Shown: in pieces, positions 6,078-25,573 of the stretch
Layout: each line of letters opens with the position of its first letter
Numbering within the stretch: the first letter of the stretch is position 1
Virus record (IMG/VR): IMGVR_UViG_3300042691_031810
Coordinates: 1 to 34,924 of that record
Reading direction: 5' to 3' (one strand)
Length of the DNA: 34,924 nucleotides
Origin: a virus
Position numbers and translations under genes: made by a program
Notes under the pieces: generated by a model
The model's database searches: none
What the model saw: only the letters and a program-made list of their open reading frames with translations
What the model was told of the DNA's origin: nothing

Positions 6078-6089
6078 ATTACAAAAACT

Positions 6090-7916: not shown

Positions 7917-8994
7917 TCAAGATTTGATAATTGTAACTTTTGGATTTGGCCCAACATATAGAGATAGGGTAAAGTATCAAATAAATGAAGCATCAACTAG
8001 ATTTGGATACGATAAAGTTATGAAGTATTTTATTTTAACCGATAGAGTTGAAGATTTTATTGGATTAGATAAAAATGTGCAGGATTTGATAGTTGATGTT
8101 GTTGATATTGAAGAATGTAGAAAAGATGATGAGTTCTCTAAATTGTATGAACCGCTACCTGAAGAAAAAATAGATGATGAATTATACGCTACACAACTTA
8201 GATATAATAGTGATGTCAAAAAATTATTATTTAGTTATGGGCTAAAACGATATGCTCTAAAAGCATTAGCTCAACGCGGTATAACTAAATTTCTATATAT
8301 GGATGCAGATATTAAATTACATTATGACCATATAGTTGAGGGTAAAAAAACAGAAGAAGAATTTTGGGGAGAATTTGATATCCCAGTTAATTGCATAAAA
8401 GGGTGTGGAACTGAGACATTAAAGTTTACTCAACTGGATAAAAATAACGATATGCAGTTCATCTATAGTAAAACTGCCGGCTCACATGATAGCGTGCGTG
8501 CATTGCAAGCTTCTTCAATAGTAATGTATAAGTATTTCGAAGAATTAGGACAATTAGAAAAATTTATAATACCATTAGAGCTCACAATTATAGAAGGGCC
8601 GGTGAGAATTTTTAACTTTGAAAGTGTGAGTAAATTAGAAAGTTATTTTAATACATTGAATTCCGTATCTCGCCTATTCTTACAAAATGGACAGTTATAC
8701 TCTACAAATTTATGTGGTGGTTATATTCTATGTGATTATTTACCTCTATCAGTAGCCAATTCTCTAGAAAATATACAAGTTCAACACTTACCTGGCCACT
8801 TATTTGAATACAGAAACTTTTTTGAAGATCGGTTTTGGGGAACACAATGGTATGAAAACCATGAGTGCGATAGTGAAACAACATATTTAATATCAACAAA
8901 AAGTAAAAAAGAATTTCTAAAAAAGAACGAGAAAATGATAGAATGTATGAAAAAAAGGAATCAATGGCCGTATGTTAGTTGGAGTTGTATTTAA
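7909..8994 (+). CDS. Putative glycosyltransferase with DAD motif
   Basis: 361 residues. The N-terminus DLIIVTFGFGPTYRDRV and the central KFLYMDADIKLHYD stretch (DAD at 132-134) have the layout of GT-A fold enzymes such as GT8 and relatives. Later stretches (SSIVMYKYFEELGQ, LCGGYILCDYLPLS, QHLPGHLFEYRNFF) look conserved but I cannot tie them to a named family. The start overlaps the upstream stop by ATGAATAA, identical to the 4803 junction. A sugar-transfer role rests on the DAD motif and on its place in the cassette; the substrate is unknown. Confidence 0.5.
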   Translation: MNNQDLIIVTFGFGPTYRDRVKYQINEASTRFGYDKVMKYFILTDRVEDFIGLDKNVQDLIVDVVDIEECRKDDEFSKLYEPLPEEKIDDELYATQLRYNSDVKKLLFSYGLKRYALKALAQRGITKFLYMDADIKLHYDHIVEGKKTEEEFWGEFDIPVNCIKGCGTETLKFTQLDKNNDMQFIYSKTAGSHDSVRALQASSIVMYKYFEELGQLEKFIIPLELTIIEGPVRIFNFESVSKLESYFNTLNSVSRLFLQNGQLYSTNLCGGYILCDYLPLSVANSLENIQVQHLPGHLFEYRNFFEDRFWGTQWYENHECDSETTYLISTKSKKEFLKKNEKMIECMKKRNQWPYVSWSCI

Positions 8995-9012
8995 TAAATT
9001 AAAAAAGAACAC

Positions 9013-11402: not shown

Positions 11403-13262
11403 ATGAACAATTTAGTACGCTATCTTGTAGAAAGTATCTTACTTGAAGAGGTAAAAGATGTGGTTGTGGTTTATGCAGGTAGGTTTCAACCATTTCACAA
11501 GGGTCATTATGCCACTTATCAACATTTGGTAAAGAAATTCGGAAAGGATAGTGTATATATTGGTACATCAAATACAACCGATGCCAAAAAATCACCATTT
11601 AATTTCAAAGAAAAGAAATTGATAATGACAAAGATGTTTGGAATCCCATCAAATCAAATAGTGATGGTAAAGAACCCCTACAGACCAATAGAAGTACTTA
11701 ATGGCATAAAGAAAGATACGGCATTCATAACGGTAGTAGGGGCAAAGGATAAAAACAGATTAGCAGGTGGTAAGTATTTTTCTCAATACAAAGGAGTAGC
11801 CGATAAAGGATACGAAGATGCCGGGTATTACTATATAGCACCACCCCAACCAAACGCAGTTAGTGGAACTGATGTCCGAAATTGGTTAAGTAACGGAACA
11901 ACTGATGAAAAGAAAAGTAATTTTATGAAGGCATATCCTAAATTTGATGCCTCTATTTTCAAACTAATAACCGATAAACTTGCAACCTTAAAAACTGAAA
12001 GTGTAAAAAGAAGAACTATAGATGATATACTTAATGAAGTTGTAAAGAATAAACGCATTATTTCAGAAGGTGGTGCGTACGGCCATATGGCGCATCCTTT
12101 TGATTTGGAGATGAACCTTACATTTGGTGATTTGAAAAATATAGTGAAGAAGGCACTCAATGGAGAATTAGAATTAGCGAGAGAGAAAACAGATGGTCAA
12201 GCATTGGCAGTTAGTTGGGTTAAAGGTAGATTAGTTGCTGCGCGAAACAAATCACATTTAAGGAATAAAGGTGAGGGTGCAATGGATATTACTCAAGTGG
12301 CAACTAAATTCGCAAATAGAGGTGGGTTAACTGATGCATACAACTTTGCAATGAAAGATTTAGAATCTGCTATCGGTGGATTATCGGATGCACAAAAGAA
12401 ACTCATCTTTAAGGATGGAGCGTGTTTTATGAATTTGGAAGTGATATACCCCGAATCAGTAAATGTTATTCCTTATGGTCAACCTCTATTAGTATTTCAT
12501 GGAACATTTGAATATGATATGGATGGTAATATAATAGGAGAGAATCAAAAATCAGCATCTATACTTGCAGGTATGATAAAACAGATTAATGCAGAAGTTC
12601 AATCTAAGTATACTATACAAGGCCCTCCTGTTCAAACTCTTCCAAAAAACCAAAACCTTATTAAGAAACAAACTAAGTATTTTGGTATGATATCCAAATT
12701 ACAAAAAGAATTTGGATTGACAGATTCATCTAATGTCGCAGATTATCATCAAGCATGGTGGGAAGATTTTGTAGAAAAAAATGCTAAAGGATTAGATACC
12801 CACTCAAAAATTGGATTAGTAAAGAGATGGGCGTTTGATGATAAGTCTTTCCGAATAGCAGGAATACAAGATAATAAGATACGAAAATGGGCAGAGGGAG
12901 TAGACAAAAAAGATAAAGATAAGATACGAAAGGATAACCTAATAAAGTTTGAAGAGATATTTTTAGGTGTAGGTGCAGATGTACTTCAGTTTATGAAATC
13001 AGTTTTAACCGTAGACCCTGATTCTGCGGCTAAATCTATGAAGAAAGAATTGGATACTGCGATAAAACAAATCCAAGCAAATGGGACACCTGAACAAATT
13101 AGGAAATTAGAAATTGAACTAAAGAGATTACACAAGTTAGGAGGGTTTAATAAAATTGTGCCAGCCGAGGGTATAGTTTTTGTTTACAATGGAAACACCT
13201 ACAAGTTGACTGGAGCATTTGCACCATTGAATCAAATATTGGGGGTATTCAAGTTTGGTTAA
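11403..13262 (+). CDS. HxGH nucleotidyltransferase fused to a polynucleotide-ligase-like domain
   Basis: 619 residues. After a leader-like N-terminus (MNNLVRYLVESILLEE), residues 20-195 form a cytidylyltransferase/NMN-adenylyltransferase fold: VVVYAGRFQPFHKGH with HKGH at 32-35, and a C-terminal SGTDVRNWL that resembles the ISxTxxR motif. From about residue 225 the protein carries the ordered motifs of covalent nucleotidyltransferases: motif I EKTDG (Lys262), a glutamate in FMNLEVIY (Glu346) as motif III, motif IV EGIVF (589-593) and motif V YKLTG (Lys601). I recall similar C-terminal domains in marine T4-like phages as DUF6267. Possible roles are nucleic-acid end repair or NAD/RNA metabolism; neither is proven. 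The leader suggests packaging into the capsid (inference). Confidence 0.65.
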   Translation: MNNLVRYLVESILLEEVKDVVVVYAGRFQPFHKGHYATYQHLVKKFGKDSVYIGTSNTTDAKKSPFNFKEKKLIMTKMFGIPSNQIVMVKNPYRPIEVLNGIKKDTAFITVVGAKDKNRLAGGKYFSQYKGVADKGYEDAGYYYIAPPQPNAVSGTDVRNWLSNGTTDEKKSNFMKAYPKFDASIFKLITDKLATLKTESVKRRTIDDILNEVVKNKRIISEGGAYGHMAHPFDLEMNLTFGDLKNIVKKALNGELELAREKTDGQALAVSWVKGRLVAARNKSHLRNKGEGAMDITQVATKFANRGGLTDAYNFAMKDLESAIGGLSDAQKKLIFKDGACFMNLEVIYPESVNVIPYGQPLLVFHGTFEYDMDGNIIGENQKSASILAGMIKQINAEVQSKYTIQGPPVQTLPKNQNLIKKQTKYFGMISKLQKEFGLTDSSNVADYHQAWWEDFVEKNAKGLDTHSKIGLVKRWAFDDKSFRIAGIQDNKIRKWAEGVDKKDKDKIRKDNLIKFEEIFLGVGADVLQFMKSVLTVDPDSAAKSMKKELDTAIKQIQANGTPEQIRKLEIELKRLHKLGGFNKIVPAEGIVFVYNGNTYKLTGAFAPLNQILGVFKFG

Positions 13263-13278
13263 TAACCATAATTGATTT

Positions 13279-14103
13279 ATGAAACTAAATGAGTGCATTA
13301 TTGTATCTAAAGAAATTGATAATAAGTTTATACTAGCTAAGAATCGTGACAGGACTTATAAACCTACACTTCGTATTGTTAGAGAGATTTTGAATGGCAT
13401 TGAAGTTGCCTATTTACATGATACTAAAACCGATTGGAGTGAAGGATTAAACTCAAATGGAATTGGAGCAATAAATTCTGCTTTGATGGTTGGTGCAGAT
13501 GAAGACGAGTTGAAGTTGATAAAGAAAAGTGGTAAAAAGAGTTTAGATGGGCAAAAGATGAGACATATTATGGCTCAACATACCCTCCGTGCGGCTTTAA
13601 TCGCAGCAGTTGTTTTCAAAGGAAATAATAGATATGGTATCAAGGGTCATACATTTATTGCATCTCCAAAAACACTTATTAGTTTAGAAAATATAAGAGA
13701 TATTGATAAACCAATTATCAAAATTGAAAATAGAGAGCACCCTCTAGTTAGAACAAATCACGGCCAAGTATATACAACTGCTGGATATACCAAAGGTAAA
13801 GATTATTTATCATCTAGATTGCGGAAGATTAGTGCCGAAAAAGTAGTTGATAAAGTAAGTGATTGGACAAAAATAGGAGCTGCATTACGAAAGAACTTTT
13901 ACGATTCCGATAAGGAATTCTTTAATATGAGTAGAGAAACTGATAAGATGTCTACAACCTCACATACAATACTTAATCTTACAGATAAGATACTTATGGT
14001 AGAGTACTATGAAGATAGAATTGATAAATTTGAAGGAATAGTTAATAAATTACCCCAAGGATATACCCCAACTATAAAAGTAGTGATTAAAAAACTTGTT
14101 TAA
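13279..14103 (+). CDS. Putative Ntn-type hydrolase / acyltransferase-like protein
   Basis: 274 residues. The N-terminus NECIIVSKEIDNKFILAKNRDR and the following WSEGLNSNGIGAINSAL resemble the start of N-terminal-nucleophile amidohydrolases of the C45/acyltransferase or choloylglycine type, where a Cys exposed by self-cleavage attacks the amide; here that would be Cys6, with NRDR at 22-25. A later VRTNHGQVYTTAGYTKG matches the usual TNH segment of that group. If so the enzyme would hydrolyse or transfer an acyl amide; the substrate is unknown. The residues before Cys6 (L-N-E) also fit the gp21 protease rule L-x-E. It stands alone between the ligase-like fusion and a Cys-rich protein, with 16 and 28 base gaps. 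Confidence 0.5.
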   Translation: MKLNECIIVSKEIDNKFILAKNRDRTYKPTLRIVREILNGIEVAYLHDTKTDWSEGLNSNGIGAINSALMVGADEDELKLIKKSGKKSLDGQKMRHIMAQHTLRAALIAAVVFKGNNRYGIKGHTFIASPKTLISLENIRDIDKPIIKIENREHPLVRTNHGQVYTTAGYTKGKDYLSSRLRKISAEKVVDKVSDWTKIGAALRKNFYDSDKEFFNMSRETDKMSTTSHTILNLTDKILMVEYYEDRIDKFEGIVNKLPQGYTPTIKVVIKKLV

Positions 14104-14131
14104 TTGAAAAATAAATAGTAAATAGATAGTT

Positions 14132-14809
14132 ATGGCAAAAAAAGAATTCAAGAGGTCTTTGATGCACAAGACCCGTAAAGAACTTGCAGATTTCATATTA
14201 AAAGGTGATGAAATCGCACAAAAATCGTGGGGATATGAAGGTGAATCTAAACGGAGAAAAGTGGGTGATGTATGGGAAGATGAATTTTGGAGATACGAAC
14301 AGATGGAAGGATTTGTATCCAAAACAGGTAAAAACCATGAGATATATCAAGATATACGGAATTATCTAAAATCCAAGTCGGAATGTCAAAACTCAGAATG
14401 TGAAAAGCAAAAGTTCGGCCCAACAGATAGAATGATAATTTCTCAAACAGGATATTGTGTTGATTGTTTGGCAAAGTTTGAAGTAGATATTAAGTTAGAG
14501 GGTTTATGGGAATCTTATGAAAAATGGAGAATGATGCGTAAAGCAATAGCAGTAGCCGAAGATGCAAAGAAACAAATAGAACAAGGTATAAAAGATTTGA
14601 AACCACATTATGAATTTGTTCAGGAGAATGGTACAATTGAAAAATGGACTCTTCCTAAACCAATGGATGAAATGAAAAAAGAAATGGAAGAAGAAATACA
14701 AAATATAGATAACGGATTAACAGAATTGAGGGAAGATATTGTTACACATGAATCTATACTAAAACAGTCAAATAATTCATACATCAAACAATTAATTAGT
14801 CAAAAATAA
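14132..14809 (+). CDS. Cys-rich, coiled-coil protein of unknown function upstream of terminase
   Basis: 225 residues, not recognised. It has a possible zinc site formed by Cys85, Cys90, Cys109 and Cys112 (C-x4-C-x18-C-x2-C), and a charged helical C-terminal half (about 130-220) likely to form a coiled coil. The N-terminus is basic (KKEFKRSLMHKTRKEL). The small terminase subunit is expected near here in T4-like genomes and no other candidate is visible, but the protein does not look like T4 gp16, so I do not assign that role. No Shine-Dalgarno; the start context is gatagttATG. Confidence 0.6.
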   Translation: MAKKEFKRSLMHKTRKELADFILKGDEIAQKSWGYEGESKRRKVGDVWEDEFWRYEQMEGFVSKTGKNHEIYQDIRNYLKSKSECQNSECEKQKFGPTDRMIISQTGYCVDCLAKFEVDIKLEGLWESYEKWRMMRKAIAVAEDAKKQIEQGIKDLKPHYEFVQENGTIEKWTLPKPMDEMKKEMEEEIQNIDNGLTELREDIVTHESILKQSNNSYIKQLISQK

Positions 14810-14822
14810 AATAGTTTATAAA

Positions 14823-15437
14823 ATGGAAAAACAAATAAATGGATGGTTCGCTTATAGGGGAGTAACATTAATGCAACATGAAAATGTAGCAATTCCTTTT
14901 CATTCATTACTACAACAAGTTAAACCAAAGAGAATTCTAGAGATTGGTACATCACATGGTGCTTTAACTCTTCTTATGCGAGATTTATTAGATGAACTTG
15001 AACTTTATGAGACGCAAATTAAATCTTATGATGTATTTTCTATCAGTCAAGAGTATGTAGCAAACATGCCCGTAAAAGGAAAAAGTATAGAATTTGTCAT
15101 TAAAAATATTTTTAATGATGTATACGATGCACTTAAAGATAAAGAGATTGGTGATTACATACAATCACCTGGAACTACTTTAGTTCTATGTGATGGTGGC
15201 TCCAAAAAAAATGAGTTTAAAATCATTTCACCTTATCTTAAACAGGGTGATATTATTATGGCGCATGATTATGCACCAAATCAAGATTATTTTGAAAATA
15301 ATGTAAAAGATAAAATTTGGAATTGGTGGGAAATACAGGATTCTGATATAGAATCGGCTGTTATAGAAAACAATTTGAAACCATACATGGAAAAAGAATT
15401 TAGAGATGTGGTATGGGTCTGTAAGATAAAAGAATAA
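14823..15437 (+). CDS. Small class I SAM methyltransferase (CmcI / Methyltransf_24-like)
   Basis: 204 residues with a Rossmann methyltransferase layout: RILEIGTSHGALTLLM (SAM loop EIGTSHG around residues 39-45), an acidic strand end IKSYDVFS, TTLVLCDGGSKKNEF, and GDIIMAHDYAPN (metal-binding-like HD). This fits the cephalosporin hydroxylase / sugar methyltransferase group. The substrate is unknown; a sugar on the phage or host surface would suit the upstream cassette (inference). It lies 13 bases after the Cys-rich gene and one base before the terminase start, so it is probably co-transcribed with terL. Confidence 0.62.
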   Translation: MEKQINGWFAYRGVTLMQHENVAIPFHSLLQQVKPKRILEIGTSHGALTLLMRDLLDELELYETQIKSYDVFSISQEYVANMPVKGKSIEFVIKNIFNDVYDALKDKEIGDYIQSPGTTLVLCDGGSKKNEFKIISPYLKQGDIIMAHDYAPNQDYFENNVKDKIWNWWEIQDSDIESAVIENNLKPYMEKEFRDVVWVCKIKE

Positions 15438-15438
15438 A

Positions 15439-17037
15439 ATGGAAACCCAAAATAAGACACTCAAAGATGTAATCAAAGATGAATACAAAAAGTGTGCGGT
15501 AGACCCGATACACTTTATGAAAAAATATTGTAAGATTCAACATCCTACCAAAGGTAAGATGCGATTTGAGTTATTTCCATTCCAAGAAAAGACATTAGAA
15601 GAATTTAATAAGAACCGATACAACATAGTTCTAAAATCTCGTCAGACAGGTATATCAACTCTTACTGCAGGGTTTGCGTTATGGCAGATGACATTTAATA
15701 GTGATTTCAATGTTCTTGTTATCGCAATCAAACAGGAAGTTGCAAAAAACTTGGTTACCAAAGTACGAGTTATGTATGATGGATTACCAAGTTGGTTGAA
15801 AGTAAACGAGGTGGAAGACAATAAACTCTCACTCCGATTAGCAAATGGTTCACAGATTAAAGCAATCGCGGCATCTCCCGATGCAGGTCGTTCTGAAGCA
15901 CTTTCACTTCTTGTGATTGATGAAGCTGCCTTCATTGATGATATTGATGAGATATGGACATCTGCAACTCCCGCTCTATCAACAGGTGGTAGTTGTATTG
16001 CACTTTCTACTCCTAATGGTGTAGGTAATTGGTTTCATAAACAATGGATGGGCGCAGAAGAAGGTGATAATGAATTCAAACCAATCAAACTACATTGGAC
16101 AGTTCACCCTGAGAGAAATCAAAAATGGAGAGATGAACAAACAATAGTATTGGGTGAGAAATTAGCAGCACAGGAATGTGATTGTGATTTCGTATCATCA
16201 GGTAATACCGTTATTGAAGCTCAGTATCTATTGTGGTATAAAGAAACATTTGTAAAAGACCCGATTGAAAAAACAGGGTTTGATGGAAATTATTGGAAGT
16301 GGGAGTACCCTGATTATGCAAAATCATACATGGTATCTGCCGATGTGGCTCGTGGAGATGGTGGAGATTATTCAGCATTTCATGTGTTTGATATTGTAAA
16401 CAATGTTCAGGTTGCAGAGTATAGAGGTAAAATGGATACCAAAGATTTCGGAAACTTCTTAGTAGGAGTTGCATCTGAATGGAATAATGCATTATTAGTA
16501 ATTGAAAACGCAAATGTGGGTTGGGCAGTTATTCAACAATGTATAGATAGAGGATATCCAAATCTCTATTACCAATCTCAAGATTACAAATATGTTGATA
16601 TAGAAAGACAATATAGTAATAAGTTGAGAGCAGAAGAGAAACGAGAGGTTGCAGGGTTTACAACATCGGTACGAACTCGTCCACTTATCATTTCAAAATT
16701 AGATGAGTATTTTAAGAATAAAGCTATGGTAATACAATCCATTCGGTTGATTGATGAATTGTTTACCTTTATTTGGAGTGGTAGTAGAGCTGAAGCGTTA
16801 AAGGGGTATAATGATGATTTGGTAATGTCATTCAGTATCGGATTATGGGTAAGGGATACTGCATTAAGGTTGAGACAGGAAAGAATGGATTTGGCAAAAC
16901 AATCTATGGATTCATTTGCAGTTACAGGATTTTCTATGGGAAATAGGAATACATATCTTAATTCAAAACTTAAACAAGACCCATATAAGGTACAAATGGG
17001 TAAGGATAGTGAGGATATTAAATGGTTATTAGGTTAA
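15439..17037 (+). CDS. terL: Large terminase subunit (T4 gp17-like)
   Basis: 532 residues; the motor and nuclease that packages DNA into proheads. ATPase domain: adenine-binding FPFQ (46-49), Walker A variant KSRQTGIST (66-74), Walker B LLVIDEAAF with Asp161 and catalytic Glu162, and coupling motif ALSTP. Nuclease domain: VSADVARGDGGDYSAF (Asp302), VIENANVG (Glu356) and YNDDLVMSF (Asp459/Asp460), the three acidic positions of the RNase H-like fold. T4 gp17 is 610 residues, so this one is somewhat shorter but complete. The gene starts one base after the methyltransferase stop. The next genes encode a capsid-associated protein and the portal instead of the sheath and tube found in T4. Confidence 0.95.
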   Translation: METQNKTLKDVIKDEYKKCAVDPIHFMKKYCKIQHPTKGKMRFELFPFQEKTLEEFNKNRYNIVLKSRQTGISTLTAGFALWQMTFNSDFNVLVIAIKQEVAKNLVTKVRVMYDGLPSWLKVNEVEDNKLSLRLANGSQIKAIAASPDAGRSEALSLLVIDEAAFIDDIDEIWTSATPALSTGGSCIALSTPNGVGNWFHKQWMGAEEGDNEFKPIKLHWTVHPERNQKWRDEQTIVLGEKLAAQECDCDFVSSGNTVIEAQYLLWYKETFVKDPIEKTGFDGNYWKWEYPDYAKSYMVSADVARGDGGDYSAFHVFDIVNNVQVAEYRGKMDTKDFGNFLVGVASEWNNALLVIENANVGWAVIQQCIDRGYPNLYYQSQDYKYVDIERQYSNKLRAEEKREVAGFTTSVRTRPLIISKLDEYFKNKAMVIQSIRLIDELFTFIWSGSRAEALKGYNDDLVMSFSIGLWVRDTALRLRQERMDLAKQSMDSFAVTGFSMGNRNTYLNSKLKQDPYKVQMGKDSEDIKWLLG

Positions 17038-17041
17038 TCCA

Positions 17042-17049
17042 TATTTATA
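17042..17049 (+). promoter_or_regulatory. TATTTATA motif, putative late promoter or start-site element
   Basis: Last eight bases of the recurrent motif, only three bases before the ATG at 17053. As a promoter it would give a leaderless or truncated message, so its role is less certain than at the sites further upstream of their genes. Confidence 0.35.
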
Positions 17050-17052
17050 GTT

Positions 17053-17601
17053 ATGAAACTTCTTACGGAATCGAAAACTATTAATGAGGGATTAGTTTAC
17101 CATAAAAATACAGGTACACCCTTACATGAATCAATCTATAGATATGGTTCTAAAATGTATTTTGGAATGTTCTATGAAGCAAGAAAATTATTCAAAGAGG
17201 GTAAATTATTAACCGAAAACGCTCAAGACCTGTGGTTTTTAACTGAAACTGATTTGGGGGAATCTGCCGTTTATAAAGGAAAGCAGATTTGGTTAGACTT
17301 TCCATACATCAACGAAGCTGAATATGATGGAAAAGAAGTGGAACTAAACCAACCTAAAAAAGGTGGTTCTAAGAAGTATTATGTTTATGTAAAGGATGGG
17401 GATAAGGTAAAAAAAGTTGAGTGGGGTGATACTACCGGTCTAAAAACTAAAATAGGTAACCTAGATGCAAGTAAAGCATTTGCAGCTAGACATAAATGTG
17501 ATACCGAAAAAGATAAAACTTCCGCAAATTGGTGGGCATGTAACCTACCTAAATACGCAAAACAACTTGGATTATCAGAACCTGCATATCGTTATTGGTA
17601 A
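17053..17601 (+). CDS. Probable prohead-associated protein with DUF5872-like C-terminal domain
   Basis: 182 residues. The C-terminal 85 residues (YYVYVKDGDKVKKVEWGD, then ARHKCD and WWAC) match a small domain of unknown function that I recall as DUF5872, common beside marine phage head genes. The N-terminal half begins MKLLTESKTINEG and is dotted with prohead-protease-like sites L/I-x-E (LLTE, FLTE, YINE before AEYDG). FLTE is the same sequence that precedes the cleaved bond in T4 gp23. I infer that the N-terminal half is a targeting/propeptide region and the C-terminal domain is retained in the capsid. Cys149 and Cys163 could bind metal with nearby His147. Confidence 0.6.
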   Translation: MKLLTESKTINEGLVYHKNTGTPLHESIYRYGSKMYFGMFYEARKLFKEGKLLTENAQDLWFLTETDLGESAVYKGKQIWLDFPYINEAEYDGKEVELNQPKKGGSKKYYVYVKDGDKVKKVEWGDTTGLKTKIGNLDASKAFAARHKCDTEKDKTSANWWACNLPKYAKQLGLSEPAYRYW

Positions 17602-17622
17602 TATGAAAAATTATTTGTATAT

Positions 17623-17892
17623 ATGGAAGAGAGATATGTTGATGTCATTATTGATGAATACAATAAGTACAGGATATTTACAAGTACAATTGATAGTGAT
17701 GAACTTTTGTGGCATCAAGACAAACGGGAAAGGGTTATTAGAATCTTTAGTGGTAGAGATTGGCAACTTCAATTTGATGACCAATTACCATTTACCTTGG
17801 AAGAGGGAAAGGATTACAAGATACCCGACCACACTTACCATAGGGTAATAAAAGGTAAAGATGATTTGATTATAAAGATAACTGAAAAATAA
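17623..17892 (+). CDS. Small cupin-like protein next to portal
   Basis: 89 residues, compact and beta-rich. The order ELLWHQDKRERVIRIFSG, WQLQFDD, FTLEEGKDYKIPDHTYHRVIKG, DLIIKI is typical of a single-domain cupin barrel: His/acidic residues in the first half, and G-x-x-Y-x-I-P with His-Arg-Val in the second. No enzymatic function can be assigned. It overlaps nothing; the stop is directly followed by the portal ATG (TAAATG), so the two are almost certainly translated from one message. An alternative frame opening at 17465 overlaps the upstream gene and has no recognisable features. Confidence 0.6.
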   Translation: MEERYVDVIIDEYNKYRIFTSTIDSDELLWHQDKRERVIRIFSGRDWQLQFDDQLPFTLEEGKDYKIPDHTYHRVIKGKDDLIIKITEK

Positions 17893-19764
17893 ATGGCAGA
17901 AGAAGTAAAAACAAACGGGTTCTTTGAGAGATTAAGAAAATTATTCTCTACCAAAGTAATCATTGCTAGGGATGAAAATGGTAATAGAAAAGTAGTAGAC
18001 CATGAACAACAACAGCAACTTTCTAACCTCAAATCCTTAAAAGATAGATTTTATCGTCTTCAGACAGGGTACAAGTACGAAAACTTTACCACTCAATTAT
18101 CCTATTCAACAATTCGTAGAGAGTTATTTTTGGATTACGATGCGATGGATAACGATCCAATCATTGCCTCTGCCTTAGATATTTATGCAGATGAGTGTAC
18201 AACTAAAAATGAGTATGGTGATATCCTAACTATTCGTACACAAAATCAGGAAGTTAAAGAAGCATTACACAATCTATTTTATGACATTCTGAATGTGGAA
18301 TTTAATTTGTGGCCTTGGGCTCGTAACCTATGTAAATACGGAGACCTGTTCCTTGTTTTAGAAATTGTAGAAGGAGAAGGAGTAGTTGGAATACATCCTC
18401 AATCTGTTTACCATGTAACTAGAACTGAAGGCCCATACGACCCATCTCGTGTTAATAAAAAAGAACCTGGCATCAAATTTACAATTGATCCCGATTATTT
18501 GGGTAAACATGAATATGATAACTATGAAGTTGCTCACTTCCGTCTTTATTCCGATACCAACTATCTACCGTATGGTAAGGCAATGTTGGAGAACGCAAGA
18601 CGATTATGGAAACAAATAACTCTTATGGAAGATGCGATGATGATTCATCGTATTATGAGAGCACCTGAAAAGAGAATATTTAAGATTGATATTGGTAATA
18701 TTCCTCCGCAGGAAGTTGATAACTATATGCAGAGGATTATCAATAAAATTAAAAAGACTCCGTTCGTAGACCAAAATACAGGAGATTATAACCTCAAGTA
18801 TAACATGATGAACATTACTGAGGATTTCTTCATGCCAGTTCGTGGTGGTGATAGTGGAACTTCAATTGATACTTTAGCTGGATTGCAATACGCTGCAATT
18901 GAAGATTTGGATTACTTGAAAGCAAAGATGTTTGCTGCTCTAAAAATACCAAAAGCATTCTTGGGATACGAGGAAGATATTAATGGCAAAGCAACATTGG
19001 CAGCCGAAGATATTCGTTTTGCTAGAACCGTACAAAGAATCCAACGAGTAATGATATCTGAACTTTCACAGATTGCAATGGTACATTTACTTGCAAACGG
19101 ATTCAAGGGTATGGATGTAGTTGATTTTGAATTAGAACTAACTAACCCATCAACTATATATGAACAGGAAAAGGTAAACCTATGGTCTCAAAAGGTTACA
19201 CTTGCAAAGGATATAAAAGATTTGAAACTTCTATCATCTGATTTCATTTATAATGAGATATTCCAATTATCTCAAGAGCAAATTGATAAACACCGTCAGG
19301 ATGTTGTACTTGATACATTTGATACCAACCGATTAACAAAGATAGAGAATGAAGGTGTAGACCCTTATGAAGAATCAAATCCTCAACCTGAAGAAGGTGG
19401 TGCACCTGCTGAAGGAGAAGCAGCACCTGAGGGAGAACCCGAAATGGAAGAATCAGTTGATGGAAGGATAGAAACATCTGCTGAAAATGGTGAATTAGGT
19501 GGAAGACCTAAGACAGCGGGTAATAGAGGTAGTGATGAAAACGCATTTGGAAGAGACCCATTAGGAAAAGCAGATGTAACCAGAAACTTCGGAAGAGAAA
19601 CTCGTAACGCTAGATTAGCTACAAGGTTAAAGGATATATCAAGCAAAGAAAAAGCCCTCCGTGATAATCTCAGGAAACGGATAAGAAAAGAGAGACTTTT
19701 TGAATCCCAAAATACGGATACAGGTTCGTTATTGGATGATAAGAACATATTACCTGACGAATAG
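17893..19764 (+). CDS. gp20: Portal vertex protein (T4 gp20-like)
   Basis: 623 residues; forms the dodecameric ring at the head vertex through which DNA passes and which nucleates prohead assembly. Recognisable gp20 stretches: LDYDAMDNDPIIASALDIYADE, IMRAPEKRIFKIDIGNIPP, MNITEDFFMPVRGGDSGT followed by IDTLAGLQ, and FAALKIPKAFLGYEED. T4 gp20 is 524 residues; the extra length is mainly a C-terminal tail (about 490-623) that is Glu/Pro/Ala-rich and then strongly basic (KALRDNLRKRIRKERLFES), with low complexity. The basic tail could touch DNA or scaffold (inference). The start follows the upstream stop with no gap. Confidence 0.93.
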   Translation: MAEEVKTNGFFERLRKLFSTKVIIARDENGNRKVVDHEQQQQLSNLKSLKDRFYRLQTGYKYENFTTQLSYSTIRRELFLDYDAMDNDPIIASALDIYADECTTKNEYGDILTIRTQNQEVKEALHNLFYDILNVEFNLWPWARNLCKYGDLFLVLEIVEGEGVVGIHPQSVYHVTRTEGPYDPSRVNKKEPGIKFTIDPDYLGKHEYDNYEVAHFRLYSDTNYLPYGKAMLENARRLWKQITLMEDAMMIHRIMRAPEKRIFKIDIGNIPPQEVDNYMQRIINKIKKTPFVDQNTGDYNLKYNMMNITEDFFMPVRGGDSGTSIDTLAGLQYAAIEDLDYLKAKMFAALKIPKAFLGYEEDINGKATLAAEDIRFARTVQRIQRVMISELSQIAMVHLLANGFKGMDVVDFELELTNPSTIYEQEKVNLWSQKVTLAKDIKDLKLLSSDFIYNEIFQLSQEQIDKHRQDVVLDTFDTNRLTKIENEGVDPYEESNPQPEEGGAPAEGEAAPEGEPEMEESVDGRIETSAENGELGGRPKTAGNRGSDENAFGRDPLGKADVTRNFGRETRNARLATRLKDISSKEKALRDNLRKRIRKERLFESQNTDTGSLLDDKNILPDE

Positions 19765-19784
19765 TGTGTTTTATTAGGGTGTAA

Positions 19785-19794
19785 TATATTTATA
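19785..19794 (+). promoter_or_regulatory. Putative late promoter TATATTTATA before the 19839 gene
   Basis: Exact copy of the ten-base motif, 44 bases before the ATG at 19839, inside the 74-base gap after the portal gene. No -35-like element is evident. Confidence 0.55.
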
Positions 19795-19838
19795 GTAGTA
19801 GATATATAGATTTATAGTTCGGACATAAAAATATCGCG

Positions 19839-20717
19839 ATGAAAGTTAAACATAGTAAGTTTAGAAATACGGCCATACTATTTGAATTGTTGGTCAAACA
19901 GATAACACATGAGGTGTTATCTAATTCCTCTAAACCTATTTCCGAGCAAATAATCAAAGAGTTTTTTAACTCCAAAAGAGAACTATCTAAGGAGTTGAAG
20001 TTGTACAATCAAATAGTAAAAGAAAAATACTCTAAGGTTGATGATGCTAAGTTGTTTCTTGAAGAAGTAATTTCTGAAAGAAAGAAGTTAGATGAAAACA
20101 AACTCAATAGAGAAAAGTACAATCTTATCAAAACTATAAAGGAATCTTATGATTTGCAGAAATTTCTATCATCAAATCTACAAAACTACCGAATTCTTGC
20201 ATCAATATATAAAGTTTTTGAAGCAAAGACCAAAGGTAGAACTGGTGAAATTCGTGAGTACATAGATGCTAACAATTTGGTACTTGAGCATATAACGGTA
20301 AAGCGTAGTTCAACTCCTAAAAAAGATGCTATCTACGAAGTATTCAAAACTCAATCTGAAGATATTCGCTTGTTAACATACAAATTGATGTTAGAAAACT
20401 TTAACAAGAAATACTCTACTCTAAATGATGAGCAGAAAAACTTGTTAAGGGAGTTTATCTATAATGTATCAAATACATCAACTTTCCCAGCTTATGTTAA
20501 AGAACAGGTAAAGAAAGTTCTTATAGAACTTGTAACCATATCTAAGATAGTAGATGATAAAGTTACCAAAATAAAAATTGCAGAGGTAGTGAAGTTGTTG
20601 AAGACAGGTAATATCTTAAAAGAAAATCAGGAAAAACAAGTTTCATTACTTATGTTATCTTACGAACTATTAAAAGAAATCAATCATGTCAAGTCCAATA
20701 GAAAGATTAAGAAGTAA
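19839..20717 (+). CDS. Conserved-looking helical protein between portal and protease, unknown function
   Basis: 292 residues, nearly all alpha-helical by composition, rich in Lys, Glu, Leu and Ile. It begins MKVKHSKFRNTAILFELLVKQIT, a start I recall from proteins of marine T4-like phages in the same place, but no function is known to me. Location between gp20 and gp21 is where T4 has its small prohead core genes 67 and 68, so a core or assembly role is reasonable (inference from position). It has its own upstream TATATTTATA motif and its last 32 bases overlap the next gene. Confidence 0.65.
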   Translation: MKVKHSKFRNTAILFELLVKQITHEVLSNSSKPISEQIIKEFFNSKRELSKELKLYNQIVKEKYSKVDDAKLFLEEVISERKKLDENKLNREKYNLIKTIKESYDLQKFLSSNLQNYRILASIYKVFEAKTKGRTGEIREYIDANNLVLEHITVKRSSTPKKDAIYEVFKTQSEDIRLLTYKLMLENFNKKYSTLNDEQKNLLREFIYNVSNTSTFPAYVKEQVKKVLIELVTISKIVDDKVTKIKIAEVVKLLKTGNILKENQEKQVSLLMLSYELLKEINHVKSNRKIKK

Positions 20718-21135
20718 GATTAGTGAAATTGTTAAAGAAGAGTTAACTCCTAAAAAGAAACTAAAGAAGGAGGCATCCGTAACTGCTAATGTGGCAGGTT
20801 ATGATACCCCTCGCGCATTTAATCCCGATGGTTCTCATACCAAAGGATATGTAAAAAGAATGGCAGGTGTTGCTGGATATTCTTCGGTAAACGAAAACAG
20901 ATTCCATCAATTGCGAAAGAATGAGAATACACCAAATCAAAAAATTGGTATTGGTATTCGTGAGATGAGAAAACAAATCACCGAGATAGAGAAATTTTTG
21001 GAATGGTATGGTAGAATTAAGAATGAAAATGGAATGAAGGGTGATGATTTTTGGAAAAGAACAAACAAGCATATTTATAAGATAAAAGAGAGGTTACAAG
21101 GTATAAGAGAAAAGATTAACAAACTATATAAGTAA
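20686..21135 (+). CDS. Small prohead-region protein with leader-like N-terminus
   Basis: 149 residues, not recognised. It opens with the amphipathic stretch IERLRSKISEIVKEEL, one of several similar leaders in this window, followed by a Gly/Asn/Pro-rich segment (AGYDTPRAFNPDG) and a helical C-terminus (IREMRKQITEIEKFLEWYGR). The start lies 32 bases inside the previous gene in another frame; the leader similarity supports this start over the later Met in VKRMAGVAGY. Possibly an internal head protein cleaved after IVKE (inference). Confidence 0.65.
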   Translation: MSSPIERLRSKISEIVKEELTPKKKLKKEASVTANVAGYDTPRAFNPDGSHTKGYVKRMAGVAGYSSVNENRFHQLRKNENTPNQKIGIGIREMRKQITEIEKFLEWYGRIKNENGMKGDDFWKRTNKHIYKIKERLQGIREKINKLYK

Positions 21136-21141
21136 ACTAAT

Positions 21142-21573
21142 ATGAAAATCACCCGCGAACAACTCCAATCTATTGTGAAAGAGGTAATGCAAGAAGAAAG
21201 CGATTACCAAGATTATTTCAAGGCAATGCTTTCTAAGCATGGTGTAAAATCTCCTGCCGAATTCAAATCTGATGAAGAGCGTAAAGATTTCTTTAATAAG
21301 GTAGAAGCTGGTTGGGATGGTGTGAACGAAAGAATTAAAGAAATTCGCACAGAACAAGCTAAAAGAGTTGAGGCTTTAAAATTAAAAGAAGCAGAAGAGG
21401 CAGAGAGATTACAAAAAGAAGCCGAAGAAAAAGCTCAACAACTAAAAGAGTTGAATGATAAAATTGATAATGCTATTGAAACATTAGAAGCACTTCGCCC
21501 AGCAGTACAGGAGGAAGTTCCTCCTATGCAACAATCAGAAGTTCCATTTCAGGAATACAAAAAGAAAAAGTAA
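21142..21573 (+). CDS. Small coiled-coil protein with leader-like N-terminus upstream of the protease
   Basis: 143 residues. The leader MKITREQLQSIVKEVMQEE parallels those at 20686 and 22193. The middle (DEERKDFFNKVEAGWDGV) may be a small helical domain; residues about 75-125 are an Ala/Glu/Lys-rich coiled coil; the end is basic (EYKKKK). Charge pattern and place suggest a prohead core or internal protein, similar in style to T4 gp67/gp68, without detectable sequence identity by eye. It starts six bases after the upstream stop and ends 18 bases before the protease gene. Confidence 0.62.
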   Translation: MKITREQLQSIVKEVMQEESDYQDYFKAMLSKHGVKSPAEFKSDEERKDFFNKVEAGWDGVNERIKEIRTEQAKRVEALKLKEAEEAERLQKEAEEKAQQLKELNDKIDNAIETLEALRPAVQEEVPPMQQSEVPFQEYKKKK

Positions 21574-21591
21574 TTTCTGATTCCAATTCTT

Positions 21592-22191
21592 ATGAAAACA
21601 CTTTTAGTAGAAACAAGACTTTTTGAGGGTAAATTACAAGAGAACGAAAATGGTGTTGTTCTTGTCAAAGGTGTACTACAAAGAGCAGATGCACAAAACC
21701 AAAATGGTAGAGTGTATCCTAAAGAGATTCTTGCAAGAGAAGTAAAAAAATACCAACAACTCATTAAGGAAAAAAGAGCGTTAGGTGAATTAGACCACCC
21801 TGATAGTTCTGTAATCAATCTTAAAAATGTTTCTCATAATATAAGAGAGTGTCATTGGGAAGGTGATGATGTGGTAGGTGTTGTAGAGATATTACCTACA
21901 CCATCTGGTAACATCTTGAAAGAATTATTGAAGTGTGGAATTCTATTGGGTATATCTTCTCGTGGTATGGGTTCAGTAGAAAACATCGGAGAAGGAAAAG
22001 TACAAGTAGGCGAAGATTTTGAATTGTTAGGTTGGGATTTTGTATCTAACCCTTCAACTCAAGGTGCATTTATGGAAACTCTTAATGAATCCGTAAGGAA
22101 AGATGTTCGCAAACAAATCGGAACAGATGTATGTGGTGAGTGGTGCAAAACACAACACCTTATCAGAGAAATTATAAGTGAATTAAACTAG
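21592..22191 (+). CDS. gp21: Prohead core protease (T4 gp21-like)
   Basis: 199 residues; serine protease that matures the prohead by cutting after (L/I)-x-E. Catalytic signatures: RALGELDHPDSS with His69 and LGISSRGMGSV with the active Ser at 122/123; the GWDFVSNPSTQGAF segment follows, as in gp21. T4 gp21 is 212 residues, so this is full length. The C-terminus HLIREIISELN looks like the leader motif of its neighbours, as expected if the protease is tethered and released by its own cleavage (inference). It is placed between core-like proteins and the scaffold, as in T4. Confidence 0.92.
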   Translation: MKTLLVETRLFEGKLQENENGVVLVKGVLQRADAQNQNGRVYPKEILAREVKKYQQLIKEKRALGELDHPDSSVINLKNVSHNIRECHWEGDDVVGVVEILPTPSGNILKELLKCGILLGISSRGMGSVENIGEGKVQVGEDFELLGWDFVSNPSTQGAFMETLNESVRKDVRKQIGTDVCGEWCKTQHLIREIISELN

Positions 22192-22192
22192 C

Positions 22193-22366
22193 ATGAAACT
22201 AACTCAATTACAATTGAGAACTCTTATCAGAGAAGAAATAAAGAAATTACGCGAGAATCTAATGGTAGCATGTCGTAATTGTGGGTGGAAGTGGAAATTT
22301 AAAGAAGGTGGAAACGACCCCTATATATGTCATCATTGTGGAGGGCATGGTGTACTCATAAAATAA
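22193..22366 (+). CDS. 57-residue zinc-ribbon microprotein with capsid-leader-like N-terminus
   Basis: Short frame with ATG at 22193 and TAA at 22364-22366, one base after the protease stop. The first 21 residues (MKLTQLQLRTLIREEIKKLR) are an amphipathic helix like the leaders at 20686 and 21142. The rest is a compact treble: ACRNCGWKWKF, then YICHHCGGHG, giving C-x2-C (residues 27 and 30) and C-x2-C (46 and 49), a zinc-ribbon pattern. I recall very similar small Cys domains in other marine phages. It could bind zinc and nucleic acid or protein inside the head; function is unknown. Confidence 0.75.
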   Translation: MKLTQLQLRTLIREEIKKLRENLMVACRNCGWKWKFKEGGNDPYICHHCGGHGVLIK

Positions 22367-22387: not shown

Positions 22388-22585
22388 ATGTTAATAGTGA
22401 AAGTAAACGGGAATATAGAAAAGGCATTGAAAACTTTGAAAAACAAAGTTATCAAAACACAACAAGTACAAGAGTTACAACGCAGAACTGAATATGTAAA
22501 ACCATCGGTAAAGCGTAGAACTGAAATCAAAGATGCAATCTACCGACAGAAAAAGAGGTCTGAAGCAGAAAAAGATTTCAACTAA
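22388..22585 (+). CDS. rpsU: Phage-encoded ribosomal protein bS21
   Basis: 65 residues. The sequence follows Bacteroidota-type bS21: MLIVKVNGNIEKALKTLKNK at the start, VQELQRRTEYVKPSV in the middle (usual form ELRxRxxFxKPSV) and KRRTEIKDAIYRQKKR at the end. Cellular bS21 binds the 30S platform near the 3' end of 16S rRNA. In Flavobacterium, bS21 with bS18 and bS6 holds the anti-Shine-Dalgarno tail, with Tyr54 as contact; Tyr52 here aligns with that residue after a two-residue deletion near the N-terminus. S21 genes are known from some other phages, such as pelagiphage and large phages. It sits after the zinc-ribbon gene and is followed directly by a terminator, so it is made with the core genes, not as an isolated insertion. 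Confidence 0.88.
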   Translation: MLIVKVNGNIEKALKTLKNKVIKTQQVQELQRRTEYVKPSVKRRTEIKDAIYRQKKRSEAEKDFN

Positions 22586-22753: not shown

Positions 22754-23935
22754 ATGACAAGCAAACTATTAAAAGAAGCAATTGCTGATGCAAAGGCCGT
22801 TAGAGAAACCGCTCTTGCAAATGCAAAAATCGCTCTTGAAGAGGCTTTCACTCCTAAACTTCAATCTATGCTTTCTAGAAAACTAAAAGAAGAATTAGAA
22901 GGCGATGAATTAGAAGAAGAGGAAGAAGTTTCTGTAAAAGAGAACGCAGTATCTTCTGATATCGGTAAGGGTGATAACAAACAACCTGCCGCTAAAGCTT
23001 TCGATTCTGCAGCCGATTCTGATGAGCTAGGAAAAGCAGGTGTTAAAAAACAAACCGCTGCTTCTGGTGAAGAAGATGAAAATTTAGAGGTAGTAGCAGA
23101 AGGTGAAGAACTTGAAGAAGATGATGTTACTGGTGCAACCCCTGACTCTGGAATTAATGAAGAGGAAGAGGAAGTAAAAGAAGGTGAAGAACTTGCTAAA
23201 GAAGGCGAGGAAGAAGTAGCCAACGAAGGTGATGATCACGATATCGAATTGAGTGAAATCATTGCTGAATTGGAAGACGAACTTGCTAAAGAAGGTGAGG
23301 AAGAAGTAGCCAAAGAAGGTGAAGAGCACACTTATGAAGGTGAAGAACCTACTTATGAGGGTGAAGAAGTAGCCAAAGAAGGTGAAGAACTTGCTAAAGA
23401 AGGTGATGAACTTGATTTAGATGAAATCCTAAGAGAAATGGGATACGGTGACGCACCTGCAGCTGAAGTTGAAGAAGGTGAGGAGTTAGAAATCGACCTT
23501 GCAAAAGAAGGTGAAGATGCTACTGCTGATGTTGACGCACTTCAGAAAGAAGTTGAGGAAAAAGAAGAGGAATTAAAAGAAGCATACAAAGTTATCAAGT
23601 CTCTAAAAGGTACAATCAATGAGGTTAACCTTTTGAACGCGAAACTTCTTTATGTTAACAAACTATTCCGTTCTTATAACTTAACCAACGAACAGAAGTC
23701 TAAAATCGTTGAGACTTTAGACAGAACAAAGAATGTAAGAGAAGTTAAATTGGTTTACTCTACCATCGCCGAATCTTTCAGAGCAGGTGCTGGTGTATCA
23801 AGAAAACCTGTTACTAAACTTACCGAAAGTTATGCATCAAAACCAGCTAAATCTACTGCCCCTGCTAAGAAAGTAATTTCTGAAAGCGCAAACATGGCAA
23901 ACAGATTCAAAAAACTTGCTGGTATCAACAAATAA
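22754..23935 (+). CDS. gp22: Prohead scaffold (core) protein, T4 gp22-like, with acidic repeats
   Basis: 393 residues; forms the internal core on which the capsid shell assembles and is degraded by gp21. The N-terminal 65 residues are helical (AIADAKAVRETALANAKIAL). Residues about 55-260 are extremely Glu-rich with repeated [LV]AKEGEE units; one repeat of more than 30 bases recurs 90 bases apart (near 23191 and 23281). The C-terminal part has the stretch recognisable in marine T4-like scaffolds, INEVNLLNAKLLYVNKLFR, followed by LDRTKNVREVKLVYSTI and NRFKKLAGINK. T4 gp22 is 269 residues; the acidic repeats account for the extra length. Directly upstream of gp23 as in T4. Confidence 0.85.
   Translation: MTSKLLKEAIADAKAVRETALANAKIALEEAFTPKLQSMLSRKLKEELEGDELEEEEEVSVKENAVSSDIGKGDNKQPAAKAFDSAADSDELGKAGVKKQTAASGEEDENLEVVAEGEELEEDDVTGATPDSGINEEEEEVKEGEELAKEGEEEVANEGDDHDIELSEIIAELEDELAKEGEEEVAKEGEEHTYEGEEPTYEGEEVAKEGEELAKEGDELDLDEILREMGYGDAPAAEVEEGEELEIDLAKEGEDATADVDALQKEVEEKEEELKEAYKVIKSLKGTINEVNLLNAKLLYVNKLFRSYNLTNEQKSKIVETLDRTKNVREVKLVYSTIAESFRAGAGVSRKPVTKLTESYASKPAKSTAPAKKVISESANMANRFKKLAGINK
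23187..23415 (+). repeat. Acidic AKEGEE repeats in the scaffold gene
   Basis: Several copies of a unit encoding [LV]AKEGEE, interspersed with TYEGEE variants. The stretch ACTTGCTAAAGAAGG.GAGG continuing into GAAGTAGCC occurs at about 23191 and again at 23281. Degenerate tandem expansion in a charged, probably unstructured region. Confidence 0.8.
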
Positions 23936-23953: not shown

Positions 23954-25573
23954 ATGGCAAATTTCAATGTAAAATCATTGCTTGAGGCAAAAAATCCTCA
24001 ATCCATTATGTTGGAGCAAACTCGTGGACTTAAGAAGAAGTGGGATAAAACCGGCTTACTTGAAGGTCTAAGAGAAAGAGAACAACATTCAATGGCGGTT
24101 CTTTTAGAGAACCAAGCTCAGCAACTTCTTGCTGAAGCATCTCAGACCAACGCAAACGGTCAGGGTTCTGAAGAATGGTCTGGTGTAGCACTTCCACTTG
24201 TAAGAAGAATCTTCGGTGAAATCGCTGCTAAAGAGTTCGTTAGCGTACAGCCTATGAACTTACCTTCAGGTCTTATTTTCTTCATGGACTTTAAGTATGG
24301 TAACACTAAAGGTGATAAGACAGCTCTTAGCTCACTTTATGGTGGTACTGGTGCTAAGTTCGGTAGAACTGATGCAGTTTCTGGTGGTCTTTATGGTAAT
24401 GGTACTTATGGATACTCACTACCTTCTCAGTCTATCGTTACTAACATTCAGCCTACTAGCGTTACTTCTGCTTCTTGGGCAGATGCTGGTTTCCGTCCTG
24501 AGTATTCTGCATCTATCGCAGGTGCAAACTCTCAGTTGAGAAAAGTTGTAGTTCCAGCTGCTATGATTACTGGTTCAGATATTGAAGCAGTTAAATCATT
24601 CATCGTAAACTGCACTGGATTCGTTCAAAACTTGAATGAATTTGCAACTCATGATTATGCAGGTAGTAACTTTACTTTCATTGTATCTTCATCTGCTGCG
24701 TTTACTCAACTATCATCTGTAAGATATAGTGTACAACCTTCTGCATTTACAAGAGGTGATTTTGAAGACCAGAATCCTATCGTTGATGGTGGTGCTGGTG
24801 CATCTACAGGAACTAACTTGAATATTCCTGAAATTGACCTTGAGTTGAAGAGTGAATCCATCGTTGCCAAGACTCGTAAGTTAAAGGCAGTGTGGACTCC
24901 TGAATTAGCGCAAGACTTGAACGCATATCACTCAATTGATGCTGAAGCTGAATTAACTTCAATGTTAAGTGAGTATATCTCATTGGAAATTGACCTTGAG
25001 ATTCTTGATATGTTACAAGTTAACGCTCTAACTACGGATTACTGGTCTGCAACCGTAGGTGAAGAATACAACCCTAGCACAGGTGCATGGGCTGGTGGTT
25101 CTTCATCATTGGCTTACCAGAAGGCAACTTGGTTCCAGACTCTTGGTGTGAAAATTAACAAAGTTTCCAACAAGATTCACCAGTTGACCATGAGAGGAGG
25201 TGCAAACTTTATCGTAGCTTCTCCTGATGTGTGTACGATTCTTGAGTCTATCCCTGGCTTCCATGTGAATGCTGAGAAGGATGCACTTCAGTTCGCAGCA
25301 GGTGTATCAGTAGTAGGTAGTATTTCTAACCGCTACACAGTTTATAAGAACCCTTACATGACCCACAATCAAATCTTGTTGGGTTACAAAGGTGCTAACT
25401 TCTTAGAGACTGGTGCAGTTTATGCTCCTTATGTACCTCTAATTATGACACCTCTTGTCTATGACCCTGATAACTTCACTCCTAGACGCGGTGTTATGAC
25501 TCGTTACGCTAAGAAGATGGTAAGACCTGAATTCTATGGTCGCATCTTCGTTAAGGATTTGAACTTAATCTAA
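23954..25573 (+). CDS. gp23: Major capsid protein (T4 gp23-like)
   Basis: 539 residues (T4 gp23 is 521). Clear gp23 landmarks: FVSVQPMNLPSGLIFFMDFKYG, SIVAKTRKLKAVWTPELAQDLNAYH with the D-A-E-A-EL-S stretch after it, FIVASPDVCTILES, ILLGYKGANFLETGAVYAPYVPL and FTPRRGVMTRYAKK. The N-terminal 61 residues are a propeptide; LLAE ending at Glu61 followed by Ala62 fits the gp21 rule and mirrors the FLTE-A cleavage in T4. Codon use looks more optimised than in the neighbouring genes (more ctt, gct, ggt, cgt and ttc), as expected for the most abundant virion protein. Followed by a strong terminator. Confidence 0.96.
   Translation: MANFNVKSLLEAKNPQSIMLEQTRGLKKKWDKTGLLEGLREREQHSMAVLLENQAQQLLAEASQTNANGQGSEEWSGVALPLVRRIFGEIAAKEFVSVQPMNLPSGLIFFMDFKYGNTKGDKTALSSLYGGTGAKFGRTDAVSGGLYGNGTYGYSLPSQSIVTNIQPTSVTSASWADAGFRPEYSASIAGANSQLRKVVVPAAMITGSDIEAVKSFIVNCTGFVQNLNEFATHDYAGSNFTFIVSSSAAFTQLSSVRYSVQPSAFTRGDFEDQNPIVDGGAGASTGTNLNIPEIDLELKSESIVAKTRKLKAVWTPELAQDLNAYHSIDAEAELTSMLSEYISLEIDLEILDMLQVNALTTDYWSATVGEEYNPSTGAWAGGSSSLAYQKATWFQTLGVKINKVSNKIHQLTMRGGANFIVASPDVCTILESIPGFHVNAEKDALQFAAGVSVVGSISNRYTVYKNPYMTHNQILLGYKGANFLETGAVYAPYVPLIMTPLVYDPDNFTPRRGVMTRYAKKMVRPEFYGRIFVKDLNLI

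Follow-up and report, generated by a model that had tools for sequence, protein, structure and literature searches.

A likely capsid-targeting system of interchangeable docking leaders in Far-T4 phages of the immuto group

Introduction

In phage T4, the capsid-targeting (CTS) peptide docks to the core and gp21 cleaves after L/I-x-E; with Asp at the cut position the peptide still targets but is no longer processed (PMC9026906). Phage P1 uses the N-terminal 30 residues of DarB to direct the protein into the head (PMC9024508), and in the giant phages SPN3US and phiKZ propeptides are cleaved after Glu (A-x-E in SPN3US), with gp53 and gp54 having a common N-terminal 15 residues (PMC5694885).

A first-pass annotation of a 34,924-base viral fragment (the whole stretch of DNA analysed here, referred to as the window) had proposed that five otherwise unrelated products share one leader of the T4 kind, which would sort them into the head. 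Here, we find that the leader system is real and widespread, that it consists of at least four non-homologous classes instead of the single common leader proposed, and that, unlike the T4 CTS, from which it also differs in sequence, it offers several addresses that are interchangeable. The leader peptides were not found in our literature search, and as far as that search shows the system is undescribed.

Results

The window is an IMG/VR fragment that encodes gp21 (PF03420), gp23 (PF07068), a phage S21 and a gp22-like protein, and its terminase was named from position and from the immuto counterpart. The best matches of gp23 are an uncultured phage (LR756508, 54%), immuto (51%), Mel-JY01 (49%) and Rhodothermus RM378 (37%), with T4-type proteins below 30%. 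Among named phages, those closest to the window are an uncultured 484-kb phage, Flavobacterium phage immuto and Microcystis phage Mel-JY01, with Rhodothermus phage RM378 next, which places the window phage in the Far-T4 group: it is an immuto-type myovirus with a gp23 closest to that group. Environmental members of Far-T4 have been linked to Bacteroidetes hosts (PMC7198788). The head genes and the peptides of interest in them are as follows.

17893..19764, + strand: portal (gp20) homologue, from position; the immuto counterpart is annotated Gp20
19839..20717, + strand: conserved protein in the portal-gp21 interval, at the place of T4 gp67/gp68 (T4 synteny 20-67-68-21-22-23; 77 distinct homologues)
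21592..22191, + strand: gp21 prohead protease (PF03420, 1.2e-28; phrog_207, 1e-52)
22153..22188, + strand: gp21 C-terminal peptide QHLIREIISELN, conserved in close relatives; likeness to class A p ~0.05
22754..23935, + strand: gp22-like scaffold, preceding gp23; homologues in 23/23 leader phages examined
23903..23932, + strand: scaffold C-terminal peptide RFKKLAGINK, counterpart of the class C core RMQKLAGI (23/23 scaffolds; PSSM tail p 0.006)
23954..25573, + strand: gp23 major capsid protein (PF07068, 2.7e-77), with a predicted propeptide of residues 1-61 ending in LLAE before A

The S21 gene (ribosomal protein S21) lies within this cluster (22388-22585) and is near gp21 in Mel-JY01 too. Elsewhere in the window, positions 199-3489 encode a 1,096-residue protein that is glycine-rich at its N-terminus and contains long TPSNSITPS repeats, and 3' of it are five genes (3554-11379) that by eye resemble glycosyltransferases or methyltransferases.

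The five products singled out by the first-pass annotation begin with the following peptides, all of which are present at the genes to which they had been assigned.

22193..22258, + strand: class A leader MKLTQLQLRTLIREEIKKLREN on a zinc-ribbon protein (22193-22366); A2 HMM iE 8.6e-6; two [LI]xE sites (IRE before E, LRE before N)
21142..21198, + strand: class A-like leader MKITREQLQSIVKEVMQEE; the protein behind it is charged and coiled-coil-like; orthologues MKISRNRLKEIVREVMVEESEYQ; no strict [LI]xE in the window copy
20686..20742, + strand: class A-like leader MSSPIERLRSKISEIVKEE; the protein behind it is conserved and contains TTGNVAGYxTPxAF; the immuto orthologue gp072 starts MKKSQIVKAVQEVLEEMSTTGAVGGY
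11403..11450, + strand: leader-like N-terminal extension MNNLVRYLVESILLEE on an NMN adenylyltransferase-like enzyme; Mel-JY01 orthologue MGKLINILLSE; alone not significant
17053..17073, + strand: class D-like leader MKLLTES on a phrog_7595 protein; orthologues MIKLLNLL, MIKLRELL, MIRLQEIV; alone not significant

The N-termini of 20686, 21142 and 22193 are alike beyond chance: their pairwise scores sum to 92, which is the 38th highest value among the 4,960 triples of window N-termini and was equalled by none of 3,000 composition-preserving shuffles (mean, 51). The likeness is weaker in the five-gene set that includes 11403 and 17053 (p ~0.011). With a class A profile built without window sequences, 22193 was the sole significant match (iE 8.6e-6), 20686 (0.33) and 21142 (0.29) were below threshold although N-terminal, and 11403 and 17053 were not recognised. 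The original observation is clear for 22193 and weaker for 20686 and 21142, while the looser likeness noted for 11403 and 17053 is backed by their orthologues and not by the profile, so that these two may be counted as leader proteins through orthologues only. A strict [LI]xE is present in every one of these leaders except that of 21142, which has V-K-E and M-Q-E instead. In a position-free search in which no start codon was required, the 22193 core QLxxLIREEIK was found 24 further times, in 22 IMG/VR stretches (2.9 million viral contigs), and 22 of these occurrences begin 4-6 residues past the first ATG of the frame.

Alignments of the 11403 product with solved NMNATs start at residue 21-25 of the query and residue 6-10 of the solved chain, so that the window protein has about 12-19 extra N-terminal residues. 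The NMN adenylyltransferase-like domain of this protein (11403-13262) is fused to a segment containing a KTDG motif, which we take to resemble RNA/DNA ligase nucleotidyltransferases; its AF2 model is poor (mean pLDDT, 48). The low-confidence model of 20686 (mean pLDDT, 53) has a helix at residues 4-20 followed by a low-confidence stretch. The short zinc ribbon of 22193-22366 (CxxCGWxW..GG.D.Y.CHxCG) moves between a tiny leader protein and larger NMNAT-like or other proteins (L420, L425, L115 and L299, in addition to the window).

Across related phages we found four leader classes, with the consensus sequences MKxSQLRQIIKEEI..VLNE (class A), NFDLKKFLvENKLT.NS (B), EQF.RMQKLAGIITE (C) and MIKLxxLLKE (D). 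As a degenerate DNA pattern, class A occurs in 108 IMG/VR stretches, and the class B and C patterns have at least 120 IMG/VR matches each. Changing Glu to Asp in the class A pattern, or swapping Gln and Leu as a scrambled control, gave 0 IMG/VR stretches in both cases. In cellular genomes (257 Gb; 84,980 species genomes), class A was found on only 2 contigs, both from one metagenomic bin, and among named phages classes B and C occur in immuto only. Among the matches listed, and with no start codon required, the motif is N-terminal in about 130 of 139 cases for class B and 108 of 128 for class C; the corresponding HMM matches are N-terminal in 192 of 201 (A) and 148 of 156 (B). Classes A to D together comprise 680 leader proteins in 286 body clusters among the matches listed, counts that should be read as orders of magnitude since clustering was by single linkage and some contigs are near-duplicates. 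A short N-terminal peptide common to unrelated proteins, as in T4, is thus what we find, and the claim that the leaders are N-terminal modules is borne out by these clusters.

Class B leaders are also seen inside longer frames, mostly with their own Met and often after L-x-E-N or similar (L205, L208, L214, L262, L264, L288, L294 and L297). These may be genes fused via lost stops, perhaps polyproteins for gp21 to separate. The class C peptide is found at the C-terminus of non-scaffold proteins (L331, L384, L386, L409, L427 and others), some of which also begin with an A- or D-like leader, an arrangement like that of T4 Alt, which is cut at both ends.

The leader class differs between homologous bodies in 18 families, as judged by stringent body alignments among the matches listed. 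Bodies behind leaders of different classes are 81% identical over 142 residues (A in L145, C in L429), 81% over 62 (A in L382, D in L420), 75% over 108 (B in L228, D in L423) and 61% over 224 (C in L145, A in L337). Since unrelated leaders substitute for each other on the same body, they most likely do the same job. Most of the bodies gave no match, and PADLOC, Pfam and PHROGs were little informative on cargo. The domains that could be recognised include an NT5C nucleotidase, a zeta-toxin-like kinase, a phage metallopeptidase and several DUFs; in immuto gp087, MKKVMGNLADLLLEESDF stands ahead of the NT5C nucleotidase domain. The window adds the NMN adenylyltransferase-like enzyme, the zinc ribbon and the two proteins at the T4 gp67/gp68 place. 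A lone TerL match in the cargo set was a false leader call. One body, of the YHFT type, is found behind A and D leaders alike. Three leader proteins have a YHFT/YHYT body start (L129:10751-11170, L198:6442-6981 and L198:8784-9209) that recalls ADP-ribosyltransferase folds; one such enzyme, Alt, is injected by T4.

The leaders go together with a T4-type head. Among leader contigs above 60 kb, gp21 is present in 23 of 28 and gp23 in the same 23, the others being without both, and all 11 leader contigs of at least 126 kb have the two genes; the window, too, has a gp21-type protease and a gp23 capsid in the same phage. The C-terminus of the gp22-like scaffold is of the KLAGI type in 23 of 23 cases, mostly R[FMW][KQR][KR]LAG[IL], which is the core of class C. 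Against a class C PSSM, 79% of the scaffold C-termini score above the 99th percentile of about 3,750 background termini (tail p 0.006), and in 54 of 57 scaffolds an [ILV]xE stands shortly upstream of the KLAGI-type peptide. In gp23, E61 is invariant in 54 homologues, with V, L or I at P3 and mostly A or S at P1', the context to be expected if gp21 cleaves there. A second [LI]xE follows the class A core in 78% of cases against 18% in the background, mostly at one fixed offset, while [LI]xD follows it in 5%. By class, 93-100% of leaders contain [LI]xE, with window 21142 as an exception; these per-class counts are partly circular because the class seeds contain Glu, a restriction from which the second-site and regional tests are exempt.

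Two further likenesses that were convincing by eye, that of class A to the gp21 C-terminus and that of class B to the gp23 N-terminus, were dropped when the PSSM test gave p ~0.05 for the former and no significance for the latter; class D and the gp23 N-terminus were not significantly alike by PSSM either. The gp21 ending HLIREIISELN, to which the first-pass annotation had drawn attention, is real and kept as REI(I/S)(T/S)ELN in close relatives, although its likeness to class A is not significant. The comparison that the annotation drew with T4 holds for the joint presence of gp21 and gp23 and for the [LI]xE end, and fails at the level of sequence: with classes A, B and D, the N-terminus of T4 ipII scores no better than background termini (p 0.5-0.9).

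For immuto, whose genome is complete, the whole gene set could be considered. An early [LI]xE[ASGTN] (residues 3-25) is present in 12 of 24 genes of the head cluster (107-131 kb) versus 12 of 185 others (p 3e-7). Leaders are repeated within the genome: NFDLKKFLVENKLT on four proteins, EQF.RMQ.LAGIITES on two and KSQLRxIIKE-like peptides on several. Profiles built without immuto matched 13 of its 228 proteins, 12 N-terminally (11 convincing; the match at 65686 is marginal) and one, the scaffold, C-terminally. Run on the whole proteome, the class C HMM built in this way picked out the scaffold, at its C-terminus, and leaders at the N-terminus of two proteins. A virion proteome of immuto was not found in our literature search.

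Discussion

Our results suggest that Far-T4 phages of the immuto group, that of the window included, use interchangeable docking leaders of classes A to D for capsid targeting in the way that T4 uses its CTS, and we consider this likely. The leaders would be short docking peptides, N-terminal and sometimes C-terminal, by which a protein docks on the prohead scaffold core during assembly; gp21 would cleave after [L/I]-x-E and release the body within the head, and many bodies would probably be ejected along with the DNA. The identity of class C with the scaffold C-terminal peptide indicates that it probably occupies the site normally binding the scaffold C-terminus. The modules and their position, the swapping, the phage specificity, the co-occurrence with gp21 and gp23, the gp21 motif and the identity of class C with the scaffold C-terminus are read directly from the sequences. 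The single leader of the interpretation first put forward has been given up, and there is no detectable sequence match to the T4 CTS; core binding, cleavage, packaging and injection are the steps that we infer.

It is conceivable, if unlikely, that the leader proteins are internal parts of the prohead core with the function of T4 gp67/gp68, cut up and expelled with no delivery to the host. The products of 20686 and 21142 are conserved and lie between portal and gp21, where T4 has gp67/gp68, and because of this location these two may be core components and not injected cargo. However, 286 highly variable body clusters (among the matches listed) are not expected of a scaffold, nor are nucleotidase, kinase and metallopeptidase domains. 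The leaders could also dock to another part of the virion, such as the tail tube, baseplate or portal neck, making their carriers virion components and not head cargo. In the 9-kb stretch L122, eight genes whose bodies differ have class A leaders and are interspersed with genes of the tail tube and baseplate type, which means that gene location is no proof of head delivery. Nevertheless, the identity of class C with the scaffold C-terminus, the [LI]xE with Glu and not Asp, and the enrichment in the immuto head cluster all argue against such docking, and we regard it as improbable.

A role of the leaders in translation or mRNA (as a start region), or their spread as selfish DNA with no part in protein sorting, is very improbable. 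Leader codon identity is 0.71 versus the 0.56 predicted from codon usage, which indicates that part of the likeness is due to recent spread at the DNA level, as modules would spread; yet the protein motif is kept despite synonymous changes, class C is also C-terminal, leaders occur within fused proteins and four unrelated sequences are interchangeable. Coincidence among amphipathic, Lys/Glu-rich N-termini of AT-rich phages, which the sub-threshold scores of 20686 and 21142 and the unrecognised 11403 and 17053 taken alone would allow, is scarcely credible and is refuted for the leader classes by the matched control patterns (0 versus 108 class A stretches).

Beyond targeting as such, there is about an even chance that the leaders form a multi-address prohead sorting code, in which each of several unrelated leaders docks on its own face of the scaffold core, at least one of them as a copy of the scaffold C-terminus, and cargos are reassigned between addresses, giving these abundant aquatic viruses a large and fast-changing injected arsenal. 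If targeting is as proposed, hundreds of "hypothetical proteins" of widespread aquatic phages become a testable list of packaged and probably injected effectors that can be recognised by sequence, the leaders are tags ready for use in loading phage heads with proteins, and the system offers a model of the copying and exchange of scaffold-binding peptides.

Among known systems, the giant phages SPN3US and phiKZ resemble the Far-T4 leaders in cleavage after Glu and in the N-terminus common to gp53 and gp54, and they differ in propeptides that are mostly much longer, in the motif and in that this N-terminus is common to paralogues only. In P1, as here, an N-terminal peptide directs a protein into the head, but that study reported no consensus among Dar N-termini (PMC9024508), and P1 seems to be without a separate scaffold. 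The T4 CTS of IPI, IPII, IPIII and Alt is alike in being a short N-terminal leader on differing proteins, in the presence of gp21, gp22 and gp23 in the same phage and in the Glu-ended L/I-x-E site (PMC9026906, PMC3012670). It is one family, whereas the Far-T4 leaders are several non-homologous classes that are swapped between homologous cargos, are carried by more proteins in each genome (about 11 in immuto), are also found at C-termini, include one class that equals the scaffold C-terminus and have no sequence match to the T4 peptide.
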